A DNA stretch of 64,000 nucleotides. It comes from Thiobacter sp. AK1. GTDB taxonomy: Bacteria; Pseudomonadota; Gammaproteobacteria; Burkholderiales; Thiobacteraceae. Of this stretch, positions 31,490 through 32,564 are shown piece by piece. Numbering within the stretch: position 1 is the stretch's first letter; each line of letters starts with the position of its first letter. The stretch spans positions 62,001-126,000 of the forward strand of contig NZ_JBAJEX010000005.1 of the NCBI RefSeq assembly GCF_039822265.1. Direction: 5' to 3'. The notes under the pieces are model-generated. The model ran no database searches, was not told the origin of the DNA, and saw only the letters and a program-made list of their open reading frames with translations. The position numbers were made by a program, and so were the translations under genes.

Positions 31490-32095
31490 TCAGCGCCGCT
31501 CGCCGTGGAGCACTTCCACGAGCTTGATGGCCTGCTGTTCCATTTCCACGATCAGGGCGTCGATCTTGGCCCGGAAATGGCGGAAGAAAATCAGGCTGGG
31601 AATGGCCACCAACAATCCCGTGGCGGTGTTGTAGAGCGCGATGGAAATGCCATGACCCAGCTGCGCGGGATCAGTGCCCGCGGCCTTGAGGGCGGCGAAG
31701 ATTTCCACCATGCCGATCACCGTTCCAAACAGACCCCACAAGGGCGCCGCGGTGGCGATGGTACCCAGCGTGGTCAGGAAGCGCTCCAACTCATGAGCCA
31801 CTGCGCGCCCTTCCTCTTCCACCGCCTCCTTCATGACTTCACGCGAGCTGTTGGCATTGCGCAGGGCGGCGGCGAACACCCGACCCAGCGGTGCACCCCG
31901 GGCGAGCCGCTCCAGCAGCTCGGGCGTAACGCCCTTTTGCCTAAGCTCCTGCAGCACCTGCGGCAGCAGGTTTTTCGGCGCGATGACCGAGCTGCGCAGC
32001 GTCCACAGTCGTTCGCCAATGATGCCCAGGGAAACGATGGAAGCAAAAATGAGCGGCCAAATGGGCCAACCTGCCTGTTCGATGATGCTGAGCAC
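31490..32095 (-). CDS. exbB: ExbB/TolQ/MotA family proton-channel subunit
   Basis: A 201-residue membrane protein with a first helix (GWPIWPLIFASIVSLGIIGE, residues 8-27) and two more in the second half (around TIATAAPLWGLFGTVIGMVE and GISIALYNTATGLLVAIPSL). These are the conserved MotA_ExbB segments. The frame runs far upstream, but the GTG at 32095 follows GGGAGGAG at ideal spacing and gives the family length. It precedes exbD by 7 bp. Confidence 0.92.
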   Translation of the reverse strand: MLSIIEQAGWPIWPLIFASIVSLGIIGERLWTLRSSVIAPKNLLPQVLQELRQKGVTPELLERLARGAPLGRVFAAALRNANSSREVMKEAVEEEGRAVAHELERFLTTLGTIATAAPLWGLFGTVIGMVEIFAALKAAGTDPAQLGHGISIALYNTATGLLVAIPSLIFFRHFRAKIDALIVEMEQQAIKLVEVLHGERR

Positions 32096-32120: not shown

Positions 32121-32149
32121 ACTTTAGCCTGCCCCCCTGGGATGGGCAA
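32121..32149 (-). promoter_or_regulatory. Predicted exbB promoter
   Basis: Minus strand TTGCCC (32144-32149), 17-bp spacer, TAAAGT (32121-32126). It would start transcription about 20 nt before the exbB GTG, independently of the promoter at 32289-32317. Confidence 0.45.
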
Positions 32150-32178: not shown

Positions 32179-32210
32179 AAAAAAATCCCCAGGCGGATGG
32201 CGACCTGGGG
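32179..32210 (-). terminator. Strong terminator upstream of exbB
   Basis: CCCCAGG and CCTGGGG (32187-32193, 32204-32210) pair around a 10-base loop, followed on the minus strand by AT and seven T. No protein gene on that strand lies upstream of it before 32580, so it must end another transcript. Confidence 0.85.
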
Positions 32211-32282
32211 CAAAGCGGAGCAGAAACAGTGACACGATTCGTGCGCCACCACGGCGGCTCCCCCGCGCGATGCTGGACGCGA
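32179..32282 (-). ncRNA. Candidate small RNA or leader RNA (~104 nt)
   Basis: The interval lies between a near-consensus promoter (32289-32317) and a strong terminator (32179-32210), both on the minus strand, with no credible protein. The predicted RNA contains GCCGCC-GT-GGTGGC and CACGA-A-TCGTG hairpins before the terminator stem. A short GTG-initiated peptide frame starts at about 32251 but has no stop before the terminator. It could be a free sRNA or an attenuated leader of exbB; the separate exbB promoter favours the first. No known RNA family was recognised. Confidence 0.55.
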
Positions 32283-32288
32283 CGCTTA

Positions 32289-32317
32289 ACTATAAAACCT
32301 CTCGTCATATATGTCAA
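32289..32317 (-). promoter_or_regulatory. Near-consensus sigma70 promoter
   Basis: Minus strand TTGACA (32312-32317), 17-bp spacer, TATAGT (32289-32294). This is the best match to the sigma70 consensus I noticed in the window. The predicted start is near 32282. Confidence 0.82.
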
Positions 32318-32365
32318 TGACATAGCCGCTCGGGCAAAGCCCGCGCCGGCAAAGGGATTGGGGCC

Positions 32366-32564
32366 TTGTCCACAATCCCTGTGGATAAGCATGTGGAAAA
32401 CGCGTGGGAAGACATGCTAAGTGCCCCAAGCAGGCGGCAATTTCGTCTGCGCCAGTTTTTTGTGCGGAAAAAAACACACGTCCTATCAATTGGATAGCGC
32501 GACATGCCAGGCTTGGCGGCGATTAGTGAGCAAACGCTCGCGCCCTGACGGCGCGTGTGGATAG
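32366..32564. other. Cluster of DnaA-box-like sites before xseA
   Basis: Four nonamers resemble the DnaA box (TTATCCACA): TTGTCCACA (32366-32374), TGTGGATAA, a perfect box in reverse (32380-32388), TGTGGAAAA (32392-32400) and TGTGGATAG (32556-32564). The first three lie within 35 bp. No dnaA, dnaN or AT-rich unwinding stretch is near, so an origin is unlikely; DnaA-controlled transcription or titration is possible. With the RNA candidate this accounts for the 32096-32580 gap. Confidence 0.45.

Follow-up and report, generated by a model that had tools for sequence, protein, structure and literature searches.

The gap between xseA and exbB in the 64,000-nucleotide stretch of DNA analyzed here (the window) carries a promoter followed by a terminator, which raises the question of whether they delimit an independent small RNA (sRNA) gene, the leader of exbB, or a spacer without a functional RNA. 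Pfam assignments placed ExbB, ExbD and LpxK downstream on the minus strand and XseA on the plus strand. The promoter, also on the minus strand, consists of a -35 hexamer TTGACA (32312..32317) and a -10 hexamer TATAGT (32289..32294) separated by 17 bp. From a predicted start at about 32282, 72 nt lead to the stem of a terminator hairpin, CCCCAGG..CCUGGGG (32187..32210, minus strand), with a 7-bp GC stem and the loop GCCAUCC (32195-32201), followed by a tract of seven T (32180..32186, minus strand). As the initial annotation had proposed, these elements predict an RNA of about 104 nt (32179..32282, minus strand), with its start placed from the -10 hexamer and its end from the T tract.

Within the 64 kb, no site but this promoter matches 11 or more of the 12 consensus bases, against 0.03 expected per dinucleotide-shuffled window, and the succession of promoter and terminator was found in 0 of 60 shuffled windows. 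At a lax scanner setting, 0.4 promoter-like matches are expected per 1.8 kb, and a match of that kind is weak evidence taken alone. Open reading frames of 134 aa on the minus strand and of 195 and 340 aa on the plus strand overlap the stretch, but they look noncoding, as they are extensions of exbB or antisense to it, and there is no ATG within the predicted RNA. The earlier statement that no open reading frame explains the RNA thus stands in this amended form. In predicted structures the loop GCCAUCC is mostly unpaired (0.87-0.97 in the RNAs where it was correctly scored). Two features count against an sRNA: the folding energy of the full-length RNA is unremarkable (z -1.2), and the seed-like segment described below is predicted to be about half unpaired in the window RNA. 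A perfect palindrome, ATGTCA-T-TGACAT (32311-32323), overlaps the -35 hexamer; it is near-perfect in the sister species G001 (ATGTCTTTGACAT) and is not present in genus g2. It is a possible operator.

We then looked at conservation. When relatives were searched with DNA, genomes of the same family aligned, but over the 3' part only (query positions 97-155). Nine sequences were used to build a covariance model, and its search of more than 300 genomes across the order yielded clear matches in 9 of the 10 genomes of family f1, in G037 (family f29) and in G054 (family f46); the homologue of the tenth f1 genome, G009, came from the DNA search. Homologues are thus present in all ten f1 genomes and in two further families, each with XseA and/or ExbB beside it. 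They adjoin xseA and, with the single exception of G001, lie upstream of exbB, and the RNAs they predict are 86 to 108 nt long. The promoter of G001 is the same TTGACA-17-TATAGT as that of the window (32317..32289, 17-bp spacer); the -35 hexamer is identical in G054 as well, and most relatives have TACAAT at -10.

Mean identity among nine f1 loci is highest in the 3' domain (84%), intermediate in the promoter (56%) and lowest in the 5' part of the RNA (37%) and the upstream DNA (30%). The conserved 3' domain comprises a C/U-rich segment, UUCUGCUCCGCUUYG, the hairpin with loop GCCAUCC and the U7 tail. The seed-like segment, UUCUGCUCCGCUUUG (32211..32225, minus strand), lies directly 5' of the terminator, and its UCCG, UU and G columns are invariant in the 12 homologues. 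Across the homologues the invariant core reads G-Y-UCCG-Y-UU-Y-GCCCC, then the hairpin with loop GCCAUCC, then the U tail; the loop has diverged in G037 and G005. The T tract is invariant in all homologues, giving U7 in the window RNA and U6 or more in the others. The initial annotation had made the small RNA depend on conservation of the promoter, stems and terminator in close relatives; the promoter, the seed region and the terminator are conserved among relatives.

In the terminator stem 97.6% of the cells are paired, and two pairs show compensatory changes, as expected of any conserved terminator. It might therefore be argued that a chance promoter is followed by a spacer terminator that insulates exbB from upstream transcription, with no functional RNA. 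The transcript is known as a prediction and its 5' half drifts freely, both of which would suit such a spacer. Terminators need pairing alone, yet here the loop and the pre-stem segment are conserved in sequence, the promoter is kept in position and sequence, and the element was retained in G001 after exbB had moved away. We regard an insulating spacer as very unlikely. Since termination does not explain the conservation of the loop and the pre-stem segment, base pairing in trans is suggested.

The distribution of the sRNA is patchy. Most families of the order lack it in the covariance search of more than 300 genomes, and in a tree of the ExbB, ExbD and XseA proteins a single origin of the sRNA could not be told from repeated loss. 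Weaker covariance matches in other families (E above 1e-4) look like unrelated terminators and have neither xseA nor exbB nearby. Among 84,980 species genomes scanned for the pattern, the named holders were uncultured betaproteobacterial MAGs, such as RBG_16_58_11 and a Hydrogenophilales MAG. Neither exbB nor xseA was present on the stretches examined for the other pattern matches (Massilia, Nitrobacter, Clostridia and others), and those from Massilia, Nitrobacter and cyanobacteria, when read, look unrelated. Plasmid records gave no match.

Is the RNA a part of exbB? It could be the 5' leader or an attenuator, with conditional termination at the hairpin deciding whether exbB-exbD-lpxK is read. 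The RNA and exbB are codirectional neighbors in all homologues but one, and some read-through would reach exbB. However, exbB, which starts with GTG at 32095, has a likely promoter of its own between the sRNA terminator and the gene, TTGCCC-17-TAAAGT (32121..32149, minus strand; -35 at 32144-32149, -10 at 32121-32126). This had been anticipated from the window, and in relatives the promoter is found as TTGCYN-17-TAAAGT or a near match, including in many families without the sRNA in the gap. Moreover, in G001 the sRNA gene is still beside xseA and precedes an operon that we read as rplU-rpmA-obg, whereas exbB is on another contig with the promoter TTGCCC-17-TAAAGT and without the sRNA (loci L002, G001:C14, and L053, G001:C4). 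The breakpoint lies between the sRNA terminator and the exbB promoter, indicating that the two are separate units. The long 5' part of the RNA is not conserved, which also argues against a leader. The RNA does not travel with exbB and does not look like the start of its transcript, and a leader or attenuator appears unlikely. The relocation of exbB in G001 amounts to a natural experiment separating an sRNA from a leader.

The initial annotation had offered a new small RNA, perhaps linked to iron or the envelope, or an attenuator; the small RNA is supported, the attenuator is disfavored, and the proposed link is not supported. No Fur-like site above the level of shuffled sequences was found at the sRNA promoters, except in the distant G037, and the window promoter scores no better than shuffled sequences for a Fur box that would place the sRNA under Fur control. 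The exbB neighborhood, from which an iron or envelope role might be read, is not kept in G001.

The evidence supports a gene that is conserved in relatives, has its own predicted promoter and terminator and is not part of exbB. With no coding frame and conservation independent of its neighbors, it has the features of an intergenic gene for a trans-acting sRNA. We consider it likely, judging from sequence, that the locus encodes, as a gene of its own, a regulatory sRNA of about 100 nt that acts in trans and probably depends on Hfq.

Next, we compared this sRNA with known families. At the gathering cut-offs of Rfam, the window yielded a tRNA only. The best match of the sRNA was to RF02278, the "toxic sRNAs" with anti-Shine-Dalgarno sequences, at 19.9 bits for a cut-off of 50; the g2 relatives scored 24 to 27 bits (at most 26.9 among the relatives) against the same cut-off. 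RF02278 includes Burkholderia ncS27/bdhR1 and Bordetella S17S, and like these the window sRNA is a short betaproteobacterial intergenic sRNA with C/U-rich anti-Shine-Dalgarno segments and a GC-rich terminator with a U tail. Most g2 relatives have a GUCUCCUCCUU or UCCCC segment just 5' of the core, which is absent from the window RNA. GUCUCCUCCUU is anti-Shine-Dalgarno in sequence and recurs in the RF02278 sRNAs of the window's own genome.

A divergent member of RF02278 (betaproteobacterial toxic sRNA/S17S/bdhR1) would account for the weak covariance matches in the window and in g2, for the CUCCUCC common to the g2 relatives together with the CCAUCCUCC motif, and for the shared layout of a double motif and a terminator. 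Nevertheless, every score is far under the 50-bit cut-off. The genome also has two clear RF02278 genes elsewhere, at G000:C4:142241-142305 (61.6 bits) and G000:C11:78167-78231 (51.5 bits), both carrying UUGUCUCCUCC..UCCUCCUCCUUUGGUGGAUUU; their UGUCUCCUCC...UUUGGUGGAUUU block is missing in the window sRNA. RF02278 is characterized by the 5' block UGUCUCCUCC and then a hairpin before the terminator; the block is absent in the window RNA and partial (GUCUCCUCC) in the g2 relatives. The window sRNA thus differs from RF02278 in lacking the conserved UGUCUCCUCC..UUUGGUGGA block and in its locus. We think membership improbable, and given the low scores and the two full RF02278 genes, we treat the window sRNA as similar to that class without assigning it there.

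Two other families show partial likeness. RF02837, anti-hemB (Burkholderia RNA 7), is likewise a small RNA; it carries a CUCCUCC motif and has a CCCCGG terminator resembling the one here. The window sRNA does not form the 5' hairpins of this family and lies at a different genomic place, and the matches, at 17.5 bits for the window and 23.6 bits for G001, are below the cut-off of 49.5. NcS25 (RF02869), a porin-repressing Burkholderia sRNA conserved in the Burkholderiales, is about 84 nt long and pairs with a Shine-Dalgarno region (PMC10117139), but its locus is BCAL3007-BCAL3008. The weak RF02869 match in the window is at chance level (E 7.9) and falls upstream of the sRNA promoter. We found no paper placing an sRNA between xseA and exbB. 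Absent from Rfam and from the literature searched, the sRNA family appears to be new, and it adds a well-delimited family to largely uncultured betaproteobacteria. Its fixed locus makes the sRNA easy to find and delete.

How might the sRNA act? Hfq is encoded in the window's genome (G000:C8:35150), and the RNA has the sequence features of an Hfq-dependent sRNA, with at least seven U after the terminator and a U-rich stretch before it. Hfq would bind both this stretch and the U tail, and the CUCC and CCAUCC stretches would pair with the Shine-Dalgarno or start regions of several mRNAs. In most relatives the CUCCUCC or UCCCC upstream may likewise pair with ribosome-binding regions. Pairing there would be expected to repress translation of those mRNAs. 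Bordetella S17S is Hfq dependent and in reporter assays represses its target by pairing with its 5' untranslated region (PMC11722255); its Burkholderia relatives in RF02278 are abundant in biofilms (PMC5688073). The mode that we infer here from sequence resembles that of S17S and the one proposed for the Burkholderia RF02278 sRNAs.

Some observations count against this mode of action. The sRNA of the window has no upstream CUCCUCC motif, and the 5' half is not conserved. We searched the ten f1 genomes for the seed complement AAGCGGAGCAGAA, allowing one mismatch, and for GCGGAGCA followed by ATG. The seed-complement matches were mostly inside coding sequences and were not shared at ribosome-binding sites, so that this search gave no conserved ribosome-binding-site target in those genomes. 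Together with RF02278 and S17S, the new family suggests that several anti-Shine-Dalgarno sRNAs operate in parallel in betaproteobacteria, and their division of labor is testable.

A cluster of DnaA boxes precedes the -35 hexamer of the sRNA by about 50 bp. Three boxes on the minus strand, TTTTCCACA-3-TTATCCACA-5-TGTGGACAA, occupy positions 32366-32400, and CACTTAGC is found at 32416-32423. The spacing, 9-3-9-5-9, and the orientation, box, box, inverted box, are exactly those of the DARS1 and DARS2 cores of Escherichia coli (NC_000913.3). A cluster is present at the corresponding place in most of 30 exbB loci across the order, 22 of which have the strict pattern. Of 250 genomes of the order, 214 contain the triple-box pattern with at most one mismatch, mostly in one to two copies, and the reversed control pattern had no match in any genome among those listed. 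A literature search joining "DnaA-reactivating sequence" with "Betaproteobacteria" found no paper, and a broader search returned nothing relevant. The cluster appears to be a DARS-like replication control site in betaproteobacteria, as a finding separate from the sRNA. There is a slim chance that expression of the new anti-Shine-Dalgarno sRNA family beside this element follows the DnaA-ATP or replication cycle; if true, the sRNA would link chromosome replication to the translation of a set of mRNAs.

Many genomes of the order share a second recurrent DARS-like triple-box site, which precedes a gene that we read as priA from the protein it encodes. This site (loci L104, L106 and L108-L113, near position 1500) is next to hemE in several cases.
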